A stretch of 40,446 nucleotides of DNA, from IMG/VR virus record IMGVR_UViG_3300043433_000087, positions 1 through 40,446 of that record; one strand, given 5' to 3'. The notes under the pieces were generated by a model. That model did no database searches. It saw nothing but the letters and a program-made list of their open reading frames with translations, and was not told where the DNA came from. Shown in pieces: positions 3,865-37,027 of this stretch; position 1 is the first letter of the stretch; each line of letters opens with the position of its first letter. The stretch is from a virus. The position numbers and the translations under genes are program-made.

Positions 3865-4332
3865 TCAAGCTGCCTCCTGGATTAGATTGCGTTTCTCAAA
3901 TTCAATGGCGATTTGCTCAGTTACCGAGTGGCGCTTGAGCACATGCGCTGGTGTTTTCATAAACACCTTGCGTGTTAACTCAACACAGTCTCTGGCGCGC
4001 TCGATGTCTTCAACCTCTAGCATCACGCCGTTTTCCAGTTTCTTTGCCAGCTTGCGGAGTGGGGTGGCATCGTAGGTCATGCCCTGGGCGCTGCAGATTC
4101 GCTCCCAGCAGCAAGCCCACCCAATCATTGCGGCGTGGATTGCCGCCCATTCGCCGTCAAACAGCATGATTGGGATGCCTTTATCGTGCTCGACTTCGCC
4201 ACTGGCAAGGTCGTCGAGTGTCTTGAAAATCGGCGTGAATAGCGCGTGCATCTCCAGTAGCGATGGCACTCGATCACCGGCATAACGACGATCAGGCCGG
4301 TAAGCCTTGCGTGGTTTTTTACTTTTAGGCAC
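3865..4332 (-). CDS. Conserved hypothetical phage protein
   Basis: 155 residues. A basic N-terminus (MPKSKKPRKAYRPDRR) precedes a helical body with GEWAAIHAAMIGWACCWERI and ELTRKVFMKTP. A lysine- and arginine-rich start before helices is common in small phage early proteins, but the function is unknown. It begins 8 bases inside the previous gene's end (stop at 4325), consistent with coupled translation. Confidence 0.6.
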   Translation of the reverse strand: MPKSKKPRKAYRPDRRYAGDRVPSLLEMHALFTPIFKTLDDLASGEVEHDKGIPIMLFDGEWAAIHAAMIGWACCWERICSAQGMTYDATPLRKLAKKLENGVMLEVEDIERARDCVELTRKVFMKTPAHVLKRHSVTEQIAIEFEKRNLIQEAA

Positions 4333-4663
4333 GTTTATTCATCCACTTGAACATGGCAGTCGGCAGGCCAATTGGGTGCAGCTTGGCTTTGCGCTTTGCA
4401 AGGACATGCTGGCTGGCAAGCCGGTTTAATAACTTCATGGAGTAGTCCTTGTGCAGCCCAGTCATGTCGGCTATGTCGTATGCAGTAAACCAGGTGCCTG
4501 GCTCTGCTTTAAGAATCAGCAAAACATCTTCAAGCGCCGATTCGCTTGGCTTTTTACCCGGCCTCTGGATGCGCTTCCACCGAGTGTCATCGAAGCTGAC
4601 AACGCGACCTGGCACGCTTGGCGGTACGTATGTGCCGTAAAGAACGGTATGCAATAGGCACAT
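4325..4663 (-). CDS. Winged-helix-like phage protein
   Basis: 112 residues. Residues 40-100 (ALEDVLLILKAEPGTWFTAYDIADMTGLHKDYSMKLLNRLASQHVLAKRK) fit a winged helix: a first helix, AYDIADMTGLHK as the turn region, a recognition helix and a basic wing. It may be a DNA-binding regulator or accessory replication protein. The fold call is from pattern only. One base separates it from the gene before. Confidence 0.55.
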   Translation of the reverse strand: MCLLHTVLYGTYVPPSVPGRVVSFDDTRWKRIQRPGKKPSESALEDVLLILKAEPGTWFTAYDIADMTGLHKDYSMKLLNRLASQHVLAKRKAKLHPIGLPTAMFKWMNKRA

Positions 4664-4664
4664 A

Positions 4665-4922
4665 TCAAGCCGCCAACTTGAGGCCGCTTTTGGCTTCGAT
4701 CATGCGGTCAACCTCACAGTCGATCTGATCTGGTTCGGCCATATGACCACCGGCACTGGTGAGAATCACCACTACGGCATCGAACTGGCTTTCGCGTAGC
4801 GTCTGGTAACGCAAGGCATCGCGCATGATCGGGTGCTGAGTGCGCAGCATGTCGGCAATAGTCTGCTCGTGCTGTTTTACCAGGAGACGCAGTTCGCAAA
4901 GTTCGTGTTCCGGGTGATTCAT
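4665..4922 (-). CDS. Hypothetical helical protein
   Basis: 85 residues with an N-terminal heptad-like helix (ELCELRLLVKQHEQTIADML), then RDALRYQTLRESQFDAVVVILTSAG and an acidic segment EPDQIDCEVDRMIEA. No known domain recognised. Its start overlaps the stop of the preceding gene (ATGA). Confidence 0.55.
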   Translation of the reverse strand: MNHPEHELCELRLLVKQHEQTIADMLRTQHPIMRDALRYQTLRESQFDAVVVILTSAGGHMAEPDQIDCEVDRMIEAKSGLKLAA

Positions 4923-5173
4923 ACCTGGCTCCGTAGTTCCAGGAACACATCGGCCGCATCCATTGCCTCAATAATCAGCGCCGGAGTGCATAGGCGATGC
5001 GCCTGGATCATCGCGCCGAGGATCTGCAGAGTCGCCACATCGCGCACGCTCATGCCGTTCATCGGCTGCTCGACAATATGGTACGAACGGGTTTCATCGG
5101 GCTGCAGCTGTACCTGATACTGCGTACCAGGGAACGCCGGGCCGCCGTTGGGCGGCTGGTTATCGTGCAGCAT
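4919..5173 (-). CDS. Small phage protein (NGGPAFP / GMSVRD type)
   Basis: 84 residues, starting at ATG 5173. The motif NGGPAFPGTQ near the start and GMSVRDVATLQIL in the middle are found in a widespread group of short prophage proteins of unknown function. The alternative longer frame to 5260 would run antiparallel through the 47-residue gene's coding region and is rejected. It overlaps the end of that gene by 14 bases. Confidence 0.65.
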   Translation of the reverse strand: MLHDNQPPNGGPAFPGTQYQVQLQPDETRSYHIVEQPMNGMSVRDVATLQILGAMIQAHRLCTPALIIEAMDAADVFLELRSQV

Positions 5174-5303
5174 AGGTCTGCACCTGGCTGGCCTTGGCAA
5201 TCTGTTCCTGATGCACGGCTTCGCGGTAGTCCATTTCGGACACAATGCAGAACAGCCCAAAAACGATCAGTCCAGCAATCCACGGTTTTATTTTCATGGT
5301 CAT
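5160..5303 (-). CDS. 47-residue single-pass membrane microprotein
   Basis: ATG 5303 follows AGGAG with seven bases between, a strong ribosome-binding site; a second in-frame ATG lies at 5297. The peptide begins MTMKIKPWIAGLIVFGLFC, one hydrophobic helix, then a charged tail (REAVHQEQIAKASQ) that ends at TAA 5160-5162. Basic residues before the helix favour N-in, C-out topology. Function unknown. Confidence 0.6.
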   Translation of the reverse strand: MTMKIKPWIAGLIVFGLFCIVSEMDYREAVHQEQIAKASQVQTYAAR

Positions 5304-5342
5304 GGCTATCTCCTGGCCCCGCCGGAGCGGGGCCGGTCAGGG

Positions 5343-6191
5343 TTACTCAGGGGTTCCAAACAGCACCGGCACACCGGCTTCGGCCTTGATCTTGCTGATC
5401 ATGTCGGCGCAGGCGTCTTCCAGTACCTTATCGGCGCGCTGCAGCTCGAACCAGAAACGTATCTCGCCTGAGTTACGATCGATGCGATAGCGCAGAAAGG
5501 CCTTGATTTCGTACGCCTGTCCGTGGTGGAACGGCCGGATACCGATGGCAAACTCCCGGAACATATCCAGTTTGCCCTTGGTGTTGTTGTCACCGTCTTC
5601 GACAAACTCGATCTGCACCATGCCGTTCTGCAGGTTGACAGCAGATCCGTACTTCACTTTGCGGGTTTCAGTCAGTGCGCTGACAAAGGTCAGCACCTCA
5701 GAGCCTGTGGGCATCTTGTTGGTTGCGTTGCCAACGATGTCGCCAATGTTCTTTTCAAGGAAGTTGGCCAACTCGACCTGGCTCATGGCGTTACCGCTGT
5801 GTTTCACCCAGCGATTCCATTCCTCCGACCAGCGCGGGTTAAACACGGCGCGGTGGTCGCGCCAGCCCGTAGCGGTTTCATCCTTGTCGGAGTGGTCGTT
5901 GAAAATCGCCACGGCCTTAACCTTGCTCTGGCCATAGTCAACATCCAGATAGATGTTCGAATAGGTCAGCGAGCCCTGGCGTTTCACGAAATCAATAAAG
6001 CTCTCAAGTTCGTGCAAGATGACGGTGCCGGACTTCCGCATCGGCTTCGGAAGGTAATTTTCCAGGCTGGCCATGCTGTATTGGCCACCGCCTGTTGGTG
6101 TAAATGCCAGCGGCGGCATGCCGTCTTCATGCTTAATCTGTGGCACGGCCGTCAGTTCGGCAATTGTTTGGGCTTCTGTCTTATCAGTCAT
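5343..6191 (-). CDS. yfdQ: DUF2303 protein (YfdQ family)
   Basis: 282 residues with the features of DUF2303/YfdQ: a central IYLDVDYGQSKVKAVAIFNDH, HRAVFNPRWSEEWNRWVKHSG, FLEKNIGDIV, and a C-terminal IGIRPFHHGQAYEIKAFLRYRI...FWFELQRADKVLEDA. The family is known from lambdoid prophages such as E. coli CPS-53 and lies in early operons, often with recombination genes; its biochemical role is unknown. AAGGGG precedes ATG 6191. It follows the 115-residue gene by ten bases, as a pair. Confidence 0.85.
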   Translation of the reverse strand: MTDKTEAQTIAELTAVPQIKHEDGMPPLAFTPTGGGQYSMASLENYLPKPMRKSGTVILHELESFIDFVKRQGSLTYSNIYLDVDYGQSKVKAVAIFNDHSDKDETATGWRDHRAVFNPRWSEEWNRWVKHSGNAMSQVELANFLEKNIGDIVGNATNKMPTGSEVLTFVSALTETRKVKYGSAVNLQNGMVQIEFVEDGDNNTKGKLDMFREFAIGIRPFHHGQAYEIKAFLRYRIDRNSGEIRFWFELQRADKVLEDACADMISKIKAEAGVPVLFGTPE

Positions 6192-6201
6192 GATCTACCC
6201 C

Positions 6202-6549
6202 TTAGCCGTTAACTGTTTTGAGGGTGGTAGCCGACTCTGCCGGTGCCGGAACTGATTTCAGTTCCAGGTCTTTTTGGCGCGGGTCGTTCGGTACCAGGCT
6301 GTTTTCGTTCGTGACGAACAGAATCGTCTCGCCCACTGGTAGCTCTGGCAGCTTGGCTTGCACCTTGTCTGTTACAACCACCGCGCCCTGGCCTTTGCTG
6401 GCTGGCTTAACGGTCAGGGTAATAATCAGCTTGGCGGTCTTGCCGGTCTCATCAACCGAGGCCACTACCTTTTGCAGCTCGTCGCCACAATCTTCCAGAA
6501 ACTCGCCGCGACGGATATCGCGGATCTGGTCAAAAAAACTACGTGACAT
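6202..6549 (-). CDS. Conserved phage protein upstream of yfdQ
   Basis: 115 residues: MSRSFFDQIRDIRRGEFLEDCGDELQ..., then strands with LIITLTVKPASKGQGAVVVTDKVQAKLP and GETILFVTNENSL. The layout suggests a small beta-rich domain after an N-terminal helix. It regularly accompanies DUF2303 genes in prophages. Role unknown. AGGAG lies seven bases before ATG 6549. Confidence 0.65.
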   Translation of the reverse strand: MSRSFFDQIRDIRRGEFLEDCGDELQKVVASVDETGKTAKLIITLTVKPASKGQGAVVVTDKVQAKLPELPVGETILFVTNENSLVPNDPRQKDLELKSVPAPAESATTLKTVNG

Positions 6550-7304: not shown

Positions 7305-7364
7305 TGCTTGCTAAATAATTGATTCGAGTCTACAATGCAAGCAAAAATATATAGGAGTGCTTGC
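7305..7364 (+). promoter_or_regulatory. P63C gene promoter with TGCTTGC sites
   Basis: TTGCTA (7308-7313), a 17-bp spacer and TACAAT (7331-7336) form a good sigma70 promoter. TGCTTGC overlaps the -35 (7305-7311), its inverse GCAAGCA follows the -10 (7337-7343), and a third copy lies between ribosome-binding site and start (7358-7364). Symmetric sites on both sides of a promoter suggest an operator, perhaps for autoregulation. Confidence 0.55.
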
Positions 7365-7365
7365 A

Positions 7366-8388
7366 ATGGACAATAATGAGAAAACCGGAAGAGCGAAAGG
7401 CGGTTTAGCAAGAGCCGCGAAATTGACCCAGGAAGAAAGAAGCGCGATCGCCAGAAAAGGGGCGATGGCTAAGAAAGCCAATAAAAATTCCATTGGTCTA
7501 CCACGTGCCGTTTTTGGCTCGCGGGACAACCCGCTGATGATCGGTGATTTATCCGTTGGCTGCTATGTATTGGAAGACGGAACACGTATTCTTACACAGG
7601 AGAGCTTTCTTACCGTTCTAGGCCGAGCAGCTAAGGCAAAGGGTGGGCACGGTGTCAGAACTGTAGTCGACAACCTCCCACCGTTTTTAGCCGCAGCAAA
7701 TCTTAAGCCATTGATTGATATAGAAATAACAAAGTCGACAACGCCGATAGAATTTATTTCACCAACTGGCGCTAAGGTATATGGGTATGCTGCGGAACTG
7801 CTTCCTGAAGTGTGCCGCGTATACCTATCGGCACGAGATAATGGCGTCTTGTTGCCAAGCCAGGAACACATTGCAGAACGAGCAGACATGCTTGTTCGTT
7901 CGCTGGCAAGTATTGGTATCGTGGCTCTCGTCGATGAGGCTACTGGCTATCAAGAGGTTCGTGACAAAAAAGCCCTATCGGCACTCTTGGATAAGTATCT
8001 CTTACAAGAGTTCGCAAAGTGGGCAAAGCGATTTCCAGACACATTTTATAAGGAGATGTTCCGATTGCGCGGATGGGAATATCCTACTATTTCGGGCGGT
8101 AAGCCAGGCGTTGTTGGCCGCTTTACAATGGACATTGTTTACCACCGTTTAGCACCTGGTCTAGTTAAAGAACTTGAAACAAGAAACCCCAAGGTAGATA
8201 ACGGTCGCCGCAAGTCTACGCATCATCAGTGGCTTACAGAAGACGTGGGCCACCCAGCTCTCAGCGAGCATATCCACGCAGTAACCGGTCTAATGCGTGC
8301 CGCTGATGATTGGGATCAGTTCAAGCGAATGTTAGATAGATCTTTTCCAGTGAAGGGTAATCAACTGCCATTAGCTTTTGAAGACTAG
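7366..8388 (+). CDS. P63C-domain protein
   Basis: 340 residues from ATG 7366 (AGGAG eight bases upstream). The N-terminus (KGGLARAAKLTQEERSAIARKGAMAKKA) is a basic helix-rich segment often seen in this family. Later come a middle domain (GCYVLEDGTRILTQESFLTVLGRA) and a C-terminal part with FPDTFYKEMFRLRGWEY and VVGRFTMDIVYHRLAPGLVKEL, which is the P63C signature. P63C proteins occur in phages and mobile elements; function unknown, DNA binding suspected. Monocistronic, with its own promoter, transcribed away from PL. Confidence 0.85.
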   Translation: MDNNEKTGRAKGGLARAAKLTQEERSAIARKGAMAKKANKNSIGLPRAVFGSRDNPLMIGDLSVGCYVLEDGTRILTQESFLTVLGRAAKAKGGHGVRTVVDNLPPFLAAANLKPLIDIEITKSTTPIEFISPTGAKVYGYAAELLPEVCRVYLSARDNGVLLPSQEHIAERADMLVRSLASIGIVALVDEATGYQEVRDKKALSALLDKYLLQEFAKWAKRFPDTFYKEMFRLRGWEYPTISGGKPGVVGRFTMDIVYHRLAPGLVKELETRNPKVDNGRRKSTHHQWLTEDVGHPALSEHIHAVTGLMRAADDWDQFKRMLDRSFPVKGNQLPLAFED

Positions 8389-16675: not shown

Positions 16676-19174
16676 GTGACCAATTTTTCCAAGATCGATA
16701 CGAAGGCGCTGTTAGAGCGCGTGGATATCGTTGACGTGATTGATGCCCGTGTGCCTTTGAGCAAGTCGGGGGTGGAGTGGGAGGCATGCTGCCCGTTCCA
16801 CACTGAGAAGACGCCATCGTTCAAGGTGAATCAGGCAAAGCAGATTTTCCAGTGCTTCGGCTGCGGTGAGCACGGCGATGCCATTGAGTTTCTGGTGAAG
16901 TACGAGGGGGTGAGCTTCAAAGAGGCTTGCCGGATCCTTGGTGCGGATATTCCTGCAGACGATGCGGCGCCGGCGCAGCCCGGGAAGCGTGTACAGCATG
17001 CCAGCAAGCAGGCAGCTGACGAGGCGTCTGAGTGGGTGGTGGTGCGTCCGGTGCCGGTGGATGCGCCGGAGCCATTTAAGGCCCATATCAAGCGCGGCAA
17101 GCCGCAGATGGTGTGGCAGTACCGCGATGGCGCAGGCCGCACGCTGGGTTATGTGTACCGCTTTACGACCAGTACGGGCGGCAAAGAGACGATTCCGCTG
17201 ACCTGGTGCAAGAATATCAAGACGGGTGCGCAGTCGTGGCGCTGGCGTTCTTTTGATGAACCGCGGCCTCTGTATGGACTGGATACGCTGGCATCAATGC
17301 CGAATGCACCGGTGTTGGTGGTGGAAGGCGAGAAGTGCCGAGATTTTGCCCAGGCGCAGCTGCCGGATTGGGTGGTGGTGAGTTGGCCAGGCGGTGGCAA
17401 GGCGGTTAAGAAGGCCGATTGGTCACCACTGTACGGCCGTCAGCTGACATTCTGGGCTGACGCCGATGCCAAGCGGGTCCCTTTGAGTAATGCCGAGAAG
17501 GCGACGATTAAGAAGCTGGTGGGTGAGGCCGGTGCGCAGTCGGCTATCGACGATGCGCAGCTGGCCAAGCCGTTGTTGCCTGAGCAAGACCAGCCGGGCG
17601 TTAAGGCGATGACGGCGATCTATACGCCGCTGCTGAGTTGCGGGGATGTGTCTGATGTGTGGTGGGTAAACATCCCGAAGCCGGGCGATAAGCCGGATGG
17701 CTGGGATTGCGCGGACGCGATTGCAGATGGGTTATGCGGCCCTGCGTTCGAGCGCTGGATCATCGCAAACCGGTCGCCCGTTGCGGGAGCCTGCGTAGGG
17801 GTAGAAATGCCTGCAGACACAGCGCAAACAGAACCCGCGCATACGCAACGCAAGCCTTCGGCGGTTGAGGTTGATGATGATGGTATTCCGGTGCTGCCTG
17901 AGCAGGCGTGGCGGAAGCGGTTGTTGCGCAAAGATGGCGAGTTTGTCGATTGCCGGGAGAATGTGTACCTGGTGCTGCGTCACCACCCGGACCTGAAAGA
18001 GTGCCTGTGGGCCGATGAGTTTGCCCGCAAGATTGTGAAGCGTAAAAAGCTGCCGTGGGAGTCGGTAGCCGAGTTCAATGAGCGCCCGATCTGGGGTGAA
18101 GATGACGACCTGCGTTTGGGGTTGTGGCTGGCTCGGGCGCTGGGGATGCGGATCCGTGCGACGGATACGCTGGCCACGGCGGTTGGCTGGGCGGCGCGTG
18201 ATTTGCGCTGCCACCCGGTGCGTGAGTATCTGGACGGCCTTGTCTGGGATGGTGTGGATCGTCTGGATCATTGGCTGGTGGAAACGCTGGGCACCAAAGA
18301 CACGGAGTACACGCGCCTGAGCGGTCGATTCTTTCTGATGGGTATGGTGGCTCGGATTTATAAGCCGGGCTGTCAGATGCGCTTTATGCCGATCCTTGAG
18401 GGCTATCAGTATCGGGGTAAGTCGTCAGCGCTGCGGGTGTTGGCTGGCGATTGGTTCAGTGATGCACCTTTGGATCTGAATAATAAGGATACCTATCAGT
18501 TGCTACAAGGTATCTGGCTGTTCGAGATTGCCGAGCTGGATGCGTTTAACCGGTCTGAGTCGACACGCATGAAGGCGTTTGTGTCGAGTCAGGAAGACCA
18601 CTTCCGGGCGCCATATGACCGAGCTCCAAAGAAGTGGCCGCGCCAGCTTGTGTTCGCGGGTACGACCAATCAGGACGAGTATTTCAAGGACAAGACGGGT
18701 AATACCCGCTATTGGCCGTGGCGCGTTGAGGAGCGGCATCCCATATCCCTGGACCTGCTATCCAGCTGGCGTGATCAGCTGTTTGCCGAGGCGGTGCAGC
18801 GATTCAATGCAGGTGAGCGTTTCCATCCGACAGCCGATGAGCAGATCAGGCTGTTCAGCAAAGAGCAGGAAAGCCGTGAGATTTCGGATCCGTGGCAAAC
18901 AAAAATTGAGGAGGCTCTGGAGTATTCAACACAGAACAGGTTCACGACGCTTGAGATCCTGACCGATATTCTGAAGGTGGAAGTCGGCCGGATCGATAAC
19001 GCGAACCAGATGAGTACACGCGTCGGTCAGATCATGCACAAGATGGGCTGGCTGAAGCGCCGTGAGACTTCGGGCAAGCGTACTTACTACTATGTGCGCC
19101 CGAACAATGAGCAGCATGGCGGCGACCCGTTGGCAGATATCGCCAGCAAGGACGATGGCAATGACCCGATTTAA
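16676..19174 (+). CDS. Primase-helicase (CHC2 zinc finger, VirE-type ATPase)
   Basis: 832 residues from GTG 16676 (AAGGCGG upstream). N-terminal CHC2 zinc finger with C39, H42, C60 and C63 (CCPFH...CFGCGEHGDAIEFL). A Toprim-like segment follows (VLVVEGEKCRDFAQAQ... FWADAD, about 215-265). The C-terminal half is the VirE/D5-like helicase domain (PF05272 type) with Walker A EGYQYRGKSS near 575 and acidic IAELDAFNR near 620. It should prime and unwind DNA at the phage origin directly downstream. Confidence 0.93.
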   Translation: MTNFSKIDTKALLERVDIVDVIDARVPLSKSGVEWEACCPFHTEKTPSFKVNQAKQIFQCFGCGEHGDAIEFLVKYEGVSFKEACRILGADIPADDAAPAQPGKRVQHASKQAADEASEWVVVRPVPVDAPEPFKAHIKRGKPQMVWQYRDGAGRTLGYVYRFTTSTGGKETIPLTWCKNIKTGAQSWRWRSFDEPRPLYGLDTLASMPNAPVLVVEGEKCRDFAQAQLPDWVVVSWPGGGKAVKKADWSPLYGRQLTFWADADAKRVPLSNAEKATIKKLVGEAGAQSAIDDAQLAKPLLPEQDQPGVKAMTAIYTPLLSCGDVSDVWWVNIPKPGDKPDGWDCADAIADGLCGPAFERWIIANRSPVAGACVGVEMPADTAQTEPAHTQRKPSAVEVDDDGIPVLPEQAWRKRLLRKDGEFVDCRENVYLVLRHHPDLKECLWADEFARKIVKRKKLPWESVAEFNERPIWGEDDDLRLGLWLARALGMRIRATDTLATAVGWAARDLRCHPVREYLDGLVWDGVDRLDHWLVETLGTKDTEYTRLSGRFFLMGMVARIYKPGCQMRFMPILEGYQYRGKSSALRVLAGDWFSDAPLDLNNKDTYQLLQGIWLFEIAELDAFNRSESTRMKAFVSSQEDHFRAPYDRAPKKWPRQLVFAGTTNQDEYFKDKTGNTRYWPWRVEERHPISLDLLSSWRDQLFAEAVQRFNAGERFHPTADEQIRLFSKEQESREISDPWQTKIEEALEYSTQNRFTTLEILTDILKVEVGRIDNANQMSTRVGQIMHKMGWLKRRETSGKRTYYYVRPNNEQHGGDPLADIASKDDGNDPI

Positions 19175-19190
19175 CCAGCGATGGGTGAAT

Positions 19191-19433
19191 CCGTCTAACC
19201 TAAGGTTAGACGGCCCCGAAAAGGTTAGACGGCTGAAAGCCTTTGTCCGTGCTGGTTCGTCTAACCTCCTAACCTCGTCCACCCTATTTCGACAGCGCCC
19301 CACACGGGCGCGCACACGCGCACGCACGCGCGTGATGTGTTGTGTATTTAGGTTAGACAAGGTTAGGAGGTTAGACAACGCCTTTGTTTATGCGGGTTTC
19401 AACCGTCTAACTTGCCGTCCGAGCGTCTAACCT
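19191..19433. other. ori: Probable replication origin: GTCTAACCT iterons
   Basis: Seven exact or one-mismatch copies of GTCTAACCT or its inverse lie at 19193, 19203, 19222, 19259, 19350, 19368, 19405 and 19425 (the 19405 copy has one mismatch), plus truncated copies at 19269 and 19360. The first two form a palindrome with arms CCGTCTAACCT and AGGTTAGACGG around one A. The block 19259-19275 is repeated exactly inverted at 19360-19376. The region follows the primase-helicase gene, the usual site of a phage origin. Confidence 0.7.
19308..19334. repeat. 27-bp alternating purine-pyrimidine tract
   Basis: Every base from 19308 to 19334 alternates purine and pyrimidine (mostly CG and CA steps). Such tracts can adopt left-handed Z-DNA under negative supercoiling. 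It lies between the two inverted iteron blocks and near the centre of the proposed origin. Confidence 0.7.
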
Positions 19434-19453
19434 TGGCTGTCGATATCCACCTT

Positions 19454-19690
19454 ATGCGCCGCAACTGGCGAATCGTCCAGCGTTTCTGGCTTGAGGTGGA
19501 TGGCTGGTCTGATGCAGACGTCGAAGAGGCACGGGTGGCCATCAAGCAATGCTCGGACAGCGGTGATTCAGAGCGCCTTGAGTGCTGGTTTAACTACCTG
19601 GCTGCCCTAGTTGAATCGATTAAATCAAACCCTGAGGCACTGAGCGTGCTTGGAAACGATAGGAATAGCCATGGCAGCGCCACCGTTTAG
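19454..19690 (+). CDS. Hypothetical early protein
   Basis: 78 residues from ATG 19454; the frame is open further upstream through the iterons from a TTG, which is unlikely to be used. MRRNWRIVQRFWLEVDGWSDADVEEARVAIKQ..., then ERLECWFNYLAALVESIKS. Helical and acidic. No domain recognised. No good ribosome-binding site. It overlaps the next gene by 20 bases. Confidence 0.5.
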   Translation: MRRNWRIVQRFWLEVDGWSDADVEEARVAIKQCSDSGDSERLECWFNYLAALVESIKSNPEALSVLGNDRNSHGSATV

Positions 19691-19862
19691 CTGGATGTGG
19701 GGTGATCCCGCTGAGTCGATTGACCGCCTTCGTGAGATGCGGGCAGAGGCTGAACGGTATGAGAAACAGCAGGCAGAACGCCTGCGCATCAAAAAGGCCC
19801 GTCGTATTCGGAAGCTGGTCAAGTTGGCTAAATCTGGAAAGCTCAAGAAAGGAATGAAATGA
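19671..19862 (+). CDS. Small basic coiled-coil protein
   Basis: 63 residues from ATG 19671 (AGGA upstream). MAAPPFSWMWGDPAESIDRLREMRAEAERYEKQQAERLRIKKARRIRKLVKLAKSG: an acidic-basic helix followed by a strongly basic one. It may bind nucleic acid. Overlaps the Q-like gene by 4 bases (ATGA). Confidence 0.5.
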   Translation: MAAPPFSWMWGDPAESIDRLREMRAEAERYEKQQAERLRIKKARRIRKLVKLAKSGKLKKGMK

Positions 19863-20239
19863 ACACCGGAATCATCCTGCATATCGACCATCTGCTGTGC
19901 GCCTGGGGCAGATGGTCTGCCCGTCAACGTGATGGTGGCAACGGATACCCATGCATATCGCCGATGTTCAACGACATGCCGAAGGGAGACGCTTACGAAA
20001 GCCATTGCCCGAATATAGACCAGGATCTGAGCGATACCGATGGCGCAATTCAGCGACTGAATCAGCGTGACAGATCAATCTGTGTCGAGATCTACCAGAT
20101 CGGTGGCTCGGTCAGAGAGATAGCCAGCCGCATGGGCATGGCTAGAACAACCTACGAAAGAAACGTGCTACGCATCGATCTACCGCGCATTCATCGTGAG
20201 GTGATGAGACACCTGAACGATATTTCAGCCGGTATTTGA
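19859..20239 (+). CDS. Q: Q-like antitermination protein
   Basis: 126 residues. The start TGIILHIDHLLCAWGRWSARQRDGGNGYPCISPMF and the C-terminal HTH (QIGGSVREIASRMGMARTTYERNVLRIDLPRIH) match the phage antitermination Q family (PF06530 type). Q loads onto RNA polymerase paused at the late promoter and lets it pass terminators. It stands just before a strong promoter and terminator (20249-20341), the arrangement expected for a late-gene switch. Confidence 0.85.
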   Translation: MNTGIILHIDHLLCAWGRWSARQRDGGNGYPCISPMFNDMPKGDAYESHCPNIDQDLSDTDGAIQRLNQRDRSICVEIYQIGGSVREIASRMGMARTTYERNVLRIDLPRIHREVMRHLNDISAGI

Positions 20240-34536: not shown

Positions 34537-35462
34537 GTGCAGAATCATTGTCGCTTTCGGTAGTACAGCCCATCGGCATTACCGATGCCATGCTGATATC
34601 AACCGACATTCCAGAAAACGAGTATAGCGCGTGGTCATCTGGAGCAACCTACACAGTTGGCCAACGGGTAATTGTTGCCTCAAACCATAAAGTCTATGAG
34701 TCGGTTCAAGGGGCTAATACCAACCATGATCCTCTCACCAGCCCAACCTGGTGGATTGAAGTCAGCCCAACCAACCGTTGGAAAGTCTTTGACCTGAGCA
34801 ATGGCTCAAAAACAGTTACCTCAGGCACAACCCCGCCAAAAATCTCCTACAGCATCAAGCCGGGGCAGGCAGTTACTGCACTGGCTGTGCTCGGTGTTGA
34901 GAATGCGGCCAGCTTACAGATCACTATGACCGACCCGGTATTTGGTCAGGTCTACAACAAAACCGTCAGTTTCAGCCCGGTACAACCGGCGTCATCGTGG
35001 TGGAGCTGGTTCTTTGGCCAGCGTGCAACCCCTACGCAGGAGATCGCTCTGGATCTGCCAACCTACCCAAATGCCACCGTCAGTATCGTATTAACCGGCG
35101 GGGCTGCGCTGGCTGTCGGTGCCATTCTCATGGGTCAGCAAATGCGTTTTGGCTTGGGTATTCGGCAGGGCGCTCGGGTTGGTATTCAAGACTACAGCCG
35201 CAAAGAAACTAATGAATTTGGCGACACCGTCTTTGTGCAGCGTGCCTTTGCCAAACGTGCCAGCTTCGACATGCTTATTGAAAAGGCCGAAGTCGATCCG
35301 TTTCAAAACTTCCTGGCCACAGTCCGTGCTGTGCCATGCCTATGGATCGGCTCAAACGATTACGAATCAACTGTTGTTTTCGGGTTCTACAAGAACTTCG
35401 ACATCTTAATCAGCTACCCAAACCACGCAGATTGCGGACTTGAACTAGAAGGATTGTCATGA
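34533..35462 (+). CDS. Tail tip/distal tail protein with CBM-like domain
   Basis: 309 residues. Residues 33-80 (AWSSGATYTVGQRVIVASNHKVYESVQGANTNHDPLTSPTWWIEV) match carbohydrate-binding modules of the CBM5/12 type (W, Y, W pattern). The rest, with FDLSNGSKTVTSGTT, WSWFFGQRAT and RASFDMLIEKAEVDPFQNF, is a tail structural protein of several Pseudomonas and Burkholderia phages. Located at the start of the adsorption block. Confidence 0.7.
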   Translation: MSAESLSLSVVQPIGITDAMLISTDIPENEYSAWSSGATYTVGQRVIVASNHKVYESVQGANTNHDPLTSPTWWIEVSPTNRWKVFDLSNGSKTVTSGTTPPKISYSIKPGQAVTALAVLGVENAASLQITMTDPVFGQVYNKTVSFSPVQPASSWWSWFFGQRATPTQEIALDLPTYPNATVSIVLTGGAALAVGAILMGQQMRFGLGIRQGARVGIQDYSRKETNEFGDTVFVQRAFAKRASFDMLIEKAEVDPFQNFLATVRAVPCLWIGSNDYESTVVFGFYKNFDILISYPNHADCGLELEGLS

Positions 35463-37027
35463 GCGATACCATTACTCAATTGCCATCAGCGCCGCTGCCA
35501 ACGGACACCACAGCGCAATTTAACGAAAAGGCTTTCAACCTGGTTGCAGCGCTGGATACTTTTGTTGATGAAAGCAATATCCTAGCGGCCTCCGTAGAGG
35601 CTGATGCTGCAACAGCAGAATCGGCGGCTACCACGGCAACCACCAAAGCCGGTGAAGCATTGGCCAGCAAGAATGCTGCCGAGTCTGCTAAAGATAGCGC
35701 GCTAACGTATAAAACAGCTGCAGAAACCGCAGCTGCATCAGCTGCATCCTCATACGATGCATTCGATGATCGTTATCTAGGGGCAAAGTCAGCAGACCCG
35801 ACAACTGATAATGATGGCCATGCACTGATCGAAGGCGCTGAATACTGGAACACAGTCAGCAAACAGCGGCGAACATGGGACGGGTTGCAGTGGGTAGCTA
35901 CATTTGTTCCTGCTGGTGATTACCTTACGAATTCAGACATAGGTCAATCAGTGCAGCCTTATGATCCAGATACTCCAACTGTTGCTGCGTCACAAGCAGA
36001 AATGGAAGCTGGTACTGAAGAAGCGTTGCGTTCAATGTCGCCTTTACGCGTCTCACAGGCAATTGCTGCATTAGCAAAAGGTTCTCCTGAAAAAACATGG
36101 TCAGCATATACGTATACAAATACTTATATAGTTCCTAGTGGTATATCTTCTATCAGAGCTTATGCTATTGGGGCCGGTGGAAATGGTCAAACTTCTAATT
36201 TCGGTAGTGGTGGCGGCGGTGGCGGTTGCGCATTTGGAGACATTTCTGTTACATCTGGTCAAACAGTTTCAATCACAATTTCTAATGGTATTGCTTCAGT
36301 AAGCGTTGGTGCAACAACATATCTAATAGCAAATCCTGGAGCAAACGGTGATGCAGGCAGAGTCGGTGGAACTGCGACCAAACACGCGTCAGTTACTAAC
36401 GGTGGAGCATATTCAGGTGGGAACGGCGGTACAAGTTTTGGTGGCGGCGGATCTGCTGCTTCACCATTAGGAAACGGGTTTAATGGTGGTTCAGGATTAG
36501 GTGGCGGCGGCGGAATAGGCGGTAAAGGCGGAAATGGAGATTCTGATTTTTGCGGTGGCGGTGGTGGTGCTGGTGGTGCTGGTGGTGATGGGTCATCATA
36601 TTATGGAAAGAATGGTGCTGGCGGCGGATCTTGGTCAGCGGCATCATATTCAACAGCTGGCCAAGGCAGGCCGCAATTTGCAAAATTTTCTGATCCTTTA
36701 TTGACACTAGCAAATGGGGTTGGTGGAAATTTTAGTTCTGATTGCGGTGGAAGCGGTGGTTACGGTGCTGGAGGCGGCGGTGCTGGGACCCAGTATGCAC
36801 AATCAGGTGGAAGCGGTGGATGTTTCGGCGGCGGCGGTGCTGTAAGTAGCGCAAATACACTAGCAGTAGCAGGTGATGGCGGATTTATGGGCGGAGGTGG
36901 TTCTGCTTATACTCCATCTGGAATTGTATTAAATAGAGGTGGTCATGGCGGCTATGGCGGTGGAGGCGGTTGTAATACAAGACAAGCAGGTTACGGTGGG
37001 CCAGCAATTGTCATTATCTACGCCTAA
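35459..37027 (+). CDS. Tail fibre protein with glycine-rich C-terminal domain
   Basis: 522 residues. N-terminus: strand region, then an alanine-rich coiled coil (AATAESAATTATTKAGEALASK, about 45-100) and the DAFDDRYLGAKSADPTTDNDG motif common to tail fibres. From about residue 220 the protein is a glycine-rich domain with GGGGGG blocks (260-520), like fibre tips that bind host glycan or protein through polyglycine-II sandwiches. The DNA for the tip is AT-richer than the front part, suggesting swap of the tip. Confidence 0.85.
   Translation: MSDTITQLPSAPLPTDTTAQFNEKAFNLVAALDTFVDESNILAASVEADAATAESAATTATTKAGEALASKNAAESAKDSALTYKTAAETAAASAASSYDAFDDRYLGAKSADPTTDNDGHALIEGAEYWNTVSKQRRTWDGLQWVATFVPAGDYLTNSDIGQSVQPYDPDTPTVAASQAEMEAGTEEALRSMSPLRVSQAIAALAKGSPEKTWSAYTYTNTYIVPSGISSIRAYAIGAGGNGQTSNFGSGGGGGGCAFGDISVTSGQTVSITISNGIASVSVGATTYLIANPGANGDAGRVGGTATKHASVTNGGAYSGGNGGTSFGGGGSAASPLGNGFNGGSGLGGGGGIGGKGGNGDSDFCGGGGGAGGAGGDGSSYYGKNGAGGGSWSAASYSTAGQGRPQFAKFSDPLLTLANGVGGNFSSDCGGSGGYGAGGGGAGTQYAQSGGSGGCFGGGGAVSSANTLAVAGDGGFMGGGGSAYTPSGIVLNRGGHGGYGGGGGCNTRQAGYGGPAIVIIYA

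Follow-up and report, generated by a model that had tools for sequence, protein, structure and literature searches.

A mirrored iteron array behind a CHC2-VapE primase-helicase gene is a probable replication origin of a temperate phage

We propose that positions 19193 to 19433 of the virus record IMGVR_UViG_3300043433_000087 (40,446 bases; the whole stretch analysed is hereafter called the window) are the origin from which a temperate phage replicates, an origin of the type served by a self-loading initiator, which would here be the product of the gene immediately upstream, and we put the probability of this reading at about 0.88. The evidence is comparative throughout, and what the comparison establishes is how the sites are laid out, that this layout is conserved, and that it is linked to the gene and, in the gene product, to the winged-helix domain. 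In particular, the layout recurs behind VapE genes in other phages, in two plasmids, and in a SaPI, and the iterons vary together with the predicted DNA-binding domain, in agreement with the first-pass annotation, which had read the region as an iteron origin beside a VirE primase-helicase. Moreover, the same organization is a functional origin in PICIs, as determined by plasmid test (PMC6092414).

The initiator gene and the iteron array

The gene preceding the repeats encodes a protein of 832 amino acids, in which Pfam identified a CHC2 domain (PF01807, 1.7e-32) and a VapE/VirE domain (PF05272, 6.9e-72), and PHROG returned matches to DNA helicase/primase families. The assignment of a CHC2-VirE primase-helicase directly before the repeats is thus confirmed, with both domains present and the stop codon, which ends at 19174, located 18 bp ahead of the first iteron. 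The AF2 model of the protein, for which the input alignment consisted of the window and locus sequences only, has a mean pLDDT of 88.6, and its best fold match in the PDB, over the helicase part, is 7pds, PriRep1 with dsDNA (E of 4e-30; six chains, A to F, matched). The window protein shares 32% identity over 360 amino acids with this SaPI protein. The C-terminal 75 residues are modeled as helix-strand-helix-helix-strand-strand, the pattern of a winged helix, with a helix at 778 to 789 and wing strands at 793 to 796 and 804 to 807; the isolated domain gave weak Foldseek matches only (E of at least 0.09), including the winged helices of forkhead, SarA, PerR, and ArsR.

The features of the region are as follows.

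16676 to 19174, plus strand: CHC2 zinc-ribbon primase/VapE (SF3-like) helicase, 832 amino acids, GTG start assumed (Pfam, PHROG, AF2)
18890 to 19111, plus strand: C-terminal winged-helix domain, residues 739 to 812, proposed iteron reader (secondary structure of the model, partial Mantel test)
19193 to 19201, plus strand: left-half site a, GTCTAACCT
19203 to 19211, minus strand: left-half site b, GTCTAACCT
19222 to 19230, minus strand: left-half site c, GTCTAACCT
19224 to 19241, plus strand: conserved box adjoining site c, mirror of 19394 to 19411 (89% complementary)
19259 to 19267, plus strand: left-half site D, GTCTAACCT
19267 to 19275, plus strand: left-half site E, degenerate, TCCTAACCT, position kept in relatives
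19277 to 19285, plus strand: left-half site F, innermost, degenerate, GTCCACCCT, position kept in relatives
19286 to 19349, no strand: 64-bp spacer, about 62% GC
19308 to 19334, no strand: 27-bp alternating purine-pyrimidine run, GCGCGCACACGCGCACGCACGCGCGTG, Z-DNA-prone
19335 to 19349, no strand: AT-richer spacer end, candidate first melting site (sequence, position of the AT-richest 15-mer in relatives)
19350 to 19358, minus strand: right-half site F', GTCTAACCT
19360 to 19368, minus strand: right-half site E', degenerate, TCCTAACCT
19368 to 19376, minus strand: right-half site D', GTCTAACCT
19394 to 19411, plus strand: conserved box adjoining site c', mirror of 19224 to 19241
19405 to 19413, plus strand: right-half site c', variant GTCTAACTT
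19425 to 19433, plus strand: right-half site b', GTCTAACCT

The array comprises 11 recognizable copies of a 9-bp iteron of the GTCTAACCT type and a degenerate twelfth. Throughout the window, GTCTAACCT has seven exact and three one-mismatch matches, compared to a mean of 4.7 matches with at most one mismatch in shuffled sequences, and all of them lie within 240 bp except two one-mismatch matches (20758 and 21049); outside the array, the window additionally contains one GTCTAAC. Counted outward from the innermost site, the left-half sites are found at offsets 0, 10, 18, 55, 74, and 84, and those of the right half, in inverted orientation and across the spacer, at 0, 10, 18, 55, and 75. The sixth right-half site, the minus-strand partner a', is not recognizable in the window. 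The repeats in both directions reported by the first-pass annotation were found on both strands at the places it gave. Its 23-bp palindrome corresponds to 19191 to 19213, CCGTCTAACCT-A-AGGTTAGACGG, with two perfect 11-bp arms around one central base, and its two 17-bp inverse blocks are GTCTAACCTCCTAACCT at 19259 to 19275 and the exact inverse at 19360 to 19376, 101 bp from start to start. This description can be extended by three degenerate sites (19267, 19277, and 19360), by the exactness with which the offsets of the halves mirror each other, by the 27-bp alternating run, and by the maintenance of the layout in relatives. The box adjoining sites c and c' is a second element mirrored like the iterons, in the window as in many close relatives, where it reads AAACCCGC/GCGGGTTT.

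Conservation of the mirrored layout

Relatives were gathered in three ways, namely, by protein search of IMG/VR and GTDB genomes, by the origin DNA pattern, and from annotated phages, and the mirrored array was sought in the DNA behind the stop codon by an 8-mer search that is blind to the iteron motif. The layout was present at the same place in 139 of 186 distinct VapE relatives, compared to 0 to 12 of 166 to 186 control regions (score of at least 4); at a score of at least 6, the array was detected in 113 relatives and in 0 to 2 of the control regions and shuffled sequences. The 8-mer search gave no mirrored core in the remaining 47 of 186, some of which carry iterons too divergent for 8-mers, and the relatives Mica and L045 seem truly devoid of it. 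All 18 viral contigs retrieved by the origin DNA pattern alone encode a VapE protein.

The positions of the sites are nearly constant among relatives (-82, -73, -53, -18, -9, and 0, plus the mirror image), whereas the iteron letters vary: GTCYAACCT, TTCCATACC, TTCCTAACC, GCCCAACCT, TGTCCCAC, TGTCCTAC, GTCACCAA, GTCACCCC, TTGCCAAC, GTGGTCAT, and others were found. When 80 dereplicated loci were rescanned with a PWM, six was the commonest number of sites in each half, and 26 loci had exactly 6 plus 6. On this comparison, the conserved property of the putative origin is its geometry and not the GTCTAACCT motif. The search of related prophages for the same motif behind VirE genes, suggested by the first-pass annotation, would if done by motif only miss most relatives.

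The layout extends beyond the proteobacterial phages. Iterons are found behind the VapE genes of phages of Staphylococcus, Paenibacillus, and Enterococcus (L207, L208, and L210, with TGTTGCA, CTGCAACA, and GTATCCA), and the module is thus present in phages of Firmicutes too. Furthermore, the SaPI encoding the 7pds protein PriRep1 (L214, NZ_CP095113) shares these site offsets, with TGTCC iterons, and the same layout occurs with TAGCAC iterons in pGO128, a 4.3-kb plasmid in which VapE is the only recognizable replication protein, and with TGCCACC iterons in the plasmid pKNA06.

These data bear on the possibility that the sites are an operator through which the VapE protein or another regulator controls its own or downstream genes, a reading that we consider very unlikely. 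Initiators often autoregulate, and the genes after the repeats, including a Q-type antiterminator gene at 19859, run in the same direction. However, the sites lie behind the gene rather than in front of it, an operator would hardly need about 12 mirrored sites spread along 240 bp, and the plasmids and the SaPI retain the layout without these downstream genes. In addition, no sigma-70-like promoter was found in 18900 to 19900, and on this ground the promoter/operator reading was rejected.

Some relatives depart from the common arrangement. In a Pseudomonas group (L075 to L117 and L171 to L206; annotation of L042), a gene of about 375 bp separates the VapE gene from the origin, with the layout unchanged. 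Behind the primase stop of L163 (26 to 400), L168, and L177, 57-bp modules repeat the outer part of the left half, with sites in the order plus, minus, minus (26/46/57, 83/103/114, and 140/160/171), reaching up to 18 iterons, which is an amplification of the origin on one side only. In L021 (3938 to 6378), the VapE primase-helicase is split into two overlapping frames (3938 to 5023 and 4945 to 6378), with a well-kept mirrored origin behind them.

The winged-helix domain as the likely iteron reader

In pairwise comparisons, the distance between iteron matrices correlates with the distance between winged-helix domains (r of 0.53) and with that between helicase domains (0.41). Partial Mantel tests, which remove shared ancestry incompletely, left a correlation between iteron and winged helix given the helicase (r of 0.36; 0 of 2,000 permutations), whereas that between iteron and helicase given the winged helix vanished (0.017; P of 0.33). 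Since iteron divergence tracks the winged helix and not the helicase, the C-terminal winged-helix domain is the likely reader of the iterons.

Because ancestry is removed only in part by these tests, a finer case was examined, namely, the wing position aligned with residue 804, in the last wing strand. This position is Phe in 13 of 13 loci with TTCCAT-ACC iterons, one of which (L147) lies outside the main clade, and Tyr in all eight loci with TTCCTA-ACC or TTCCCA-ACC iterons; a ninth locus, with TTCCCAGCC (L067), has Arg. On the tree of the helicase part, five independent pairs change wing residue and iteron together and none changes them oppositely, giving a sign test P value of 0.0625 that is bounded by the number of pairs. 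The Phe/Tyr rule fails for the whole GTC-type group, where Phe occurs with GTCTAACC or GCCTAACC in L029 and L136. The apparent covariation of a wing residue with an iteron base looks new.

The link to the protein also weighs on two other explanations. According to the first, the inverted repeats form an RNA hairpin (a leader or an attenuator) or a DNA cruciform, and pairing between the halves is what has been selected. The transcript does fold far better than shuffled sequences (z of -8.5), and the 54-nt arms of the array are 74% complementary, but mirror partners resemble each other no more than nonpartners do (0.58 versus 0.52 mismatches; P of 0.15, in the wrong direction), and no Rfam match was obtained; the outcome of these two analyses led us to reject the RNA/cruciform reading. 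The change of the iterons along with the winged-helix domain and the near loss of the spacer hairpin signal against RY-preserving shuffles (z of -0.96 versus -3.0) are further arguments against it, and we regard it as extremely improbable. The second explanation assigns the repeats to partition (a centromere) or to DNA packaging (a pac/cos site). In its favor, iteron arrays also act as centromeres, and the terminase genes start about 1.4 kb downstream of the repeats. However, the HNH endonuclease gene of the window adjoins the terminase gene, as in cos phages, the layout accompanies the VapE gene across carriers as differently built as phages, a SaPI, and plasmids, and the iteron letters track the winged helix of the VapE protein, which makes this the least credible of the explanations considered.

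The spacer between the halves

The 27-bp strictly alternating run of the spacer is the longest in the window, where the next one measures 15 bp, and exceeds the maximum of 23 bp in 200 shuffles. Among relatives, the longest alternating run beats shuffles of the spacer's own composition (P of ≤0.05) in 127 of 137 spacers (median of 15 versus 6.8), many of which come from closely related Pseudomonas prophages, while 72 of the 76 others also exceed the shuffles. Furthermore, in 113 of 139 relatives, the spacer contains the longest alternating run of the whole fetched locus, and 82% of 78 loci have the AT-richest 15-mer of the spacer in its right half. Most of the hairpin potential of the spacer follows from the alternation.

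AT-type alternating runs occur in the PriRep1 SaPI (12 bp) and in an Enterococcus phage (21 bp). The test for an alternating run was negative in pGO128, pKNA06, and a Staphylococcus phage, and such a run is therefore not universal to the module. The GC-rich proteobacterial spacers with long, putatively Z-DNA-forming alternating runs look new, and they raise the question of how a GC-rich origin melts. It is possible to hypothesize, though we hold it to be rather doubtful, that the alternating spacer is a selected element that, by flipping to Z-DNA or absorbing twist under negative supercoiling or initiator binding, controls the melting of the AT-rich end. If so, it would act as a torsion switch and, in hosts with GC-rich DNA, take the place of the classical unwinding element, which is AT rich.

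Relation to known origins

Among the iteron origins of temperate phages is that served by lambda O; there, different from the window, the origin lies inside the O gene, the repeats are direct, P loads the host DnaB, and there is no homology. The alpha protein of phage P4, like the window protein, unites primase, helicase, and origin binding in one polypeptide, with iterons in both orientations, but it belongs to another helicase family and has another ori/crr arrangement, and we set it apart by description.

The closest likeness is to the SaPI/PICI origin (SaPI pri-rep-ori, Ubeda 2007, as cited in PMC7581432). As in that origin, the sites of the window and of its relatives lie directly 3' of the initiator gene, and two iteron sets flank a spacer with equal mirror offsets; the initiator likewise combines a helicase and a primase, separate or fused, with a C-terminal DNA-binding domain, which in the window protein is a predicted one. 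Homology of the window initiator to SaPI Rep/PriRep is indicated by the VapE domain, the 7pds fold, and the predicted winged-helix-like C terminus. Judged from sequence, the putative origin is homologous to the SaPI/PICI origin in both initiator and layout. In PICIs, the rep-ori segment of EcCICFT073 maintains a plasmid in Escherichia coli and fails to do so without ori (PMC6092414). For the module considered here, its carriage by pGO128 and pKNA06 is an indirect sign that it may drive autonomous replication of a plasmid.

However, the SaPI/PICI spacer is described as AT rich, while only the last 15 bp of the window spacer are AT-richer. Moreover, the carrier is a full-size temperate phage, the primase fused to the helicase is of the CHC2 type, the iteron letters are different, and the spacer of the window holds a long alternating run. 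Given the spacer composition and a carrier that is not a PICI, we describe the window origin as a variant of the SaPI/PICI type and not as an identical kind. The first-pass annotation did not recognize the repeat from a described phage origin; the kind of origin is a known one, that of SaPIs and PICIs.

Cch2 of SCCmec, a SaPI-Rep-like self-loading helicase, also has a C-terminal domain that binds short repeats downstream of its own gene (PMC7581432), as is predicted for the window protein. Different from the latter, Cch2 is a relative of D5/Primase_Cterm and has three AAGTG iterons and no mirrored 12-site array (PMC7581432).

In 2018, Fillol-Salom et al. considered the mirrored layout common to no other known replicon than these islands (PMC6092414). 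Against this claim, its occurrence in full-size phages and in plasmids of 4 to 26 kb looks new; our literature search, within one collection only, found no phage paper on VirE-linked iterons. Given its presence in small plasmids, in some Firmicutes phages, and in many temperate phages whose hosts are Proteobacteria, the layout is best described, on the evidence compared here, as a general module of VapE-type initiators, and it cannot alone mark a PICI.

Proposed mechanism and significance

We suggest that the winged-helix domain of the CHC2-VapE protein would bind the 9-bp iterons and that the six sites of each half would recruit one hexameric helicase each, in mirror orientation. Melting of the spacer would follow and would probably begin at the AT-richer right end, assisted by the adjacent alternating run, which is torsionally soft. 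Both hexamers would load and depart in opposite directions, giving bidirectional replication, with primers presumably made by the N-terminal CHC2 primase domain.

A specialist would expect the general features of such an origin; the breadth of its distribution, the constancy of its geometry, the alternation in the spacer, and the link to a wing residue would be of real interest. In particular, loci that keep one geometry but differ in letters form a natural series in which origin recognition by a self-loading helicase can be studied, and a single iteron base step is predicted by a single residue of the wing.

The phage genome

The window encodes an integrase, CI-, Cro-, and CII-like regulators, a terminase, a portal protein, a head protease, a major head protein, a tape measure protein, and a spanin. 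With an integrase, regulators, and a full set of virion genes, the carrier is therefore a temperate phage and not a satellite; PICI membership, which implies a satellite without its own full virion gene set, does not apply to the window.

The GC skew across the window shows no clear switch at the repeats; it mostly tracks gene direction and is uninformative for locating an origin. A skew of 0.30 at 36001 to 37000 corresponds to a putative tail protein (35459 to 37027) whose C-terminal domain is rich in glycine. A gene for a P63C-domain protein (7357 to 8388) lies on the plus strand among minus-strand early genes and is possibly a cargo gene of the lysogeny region.
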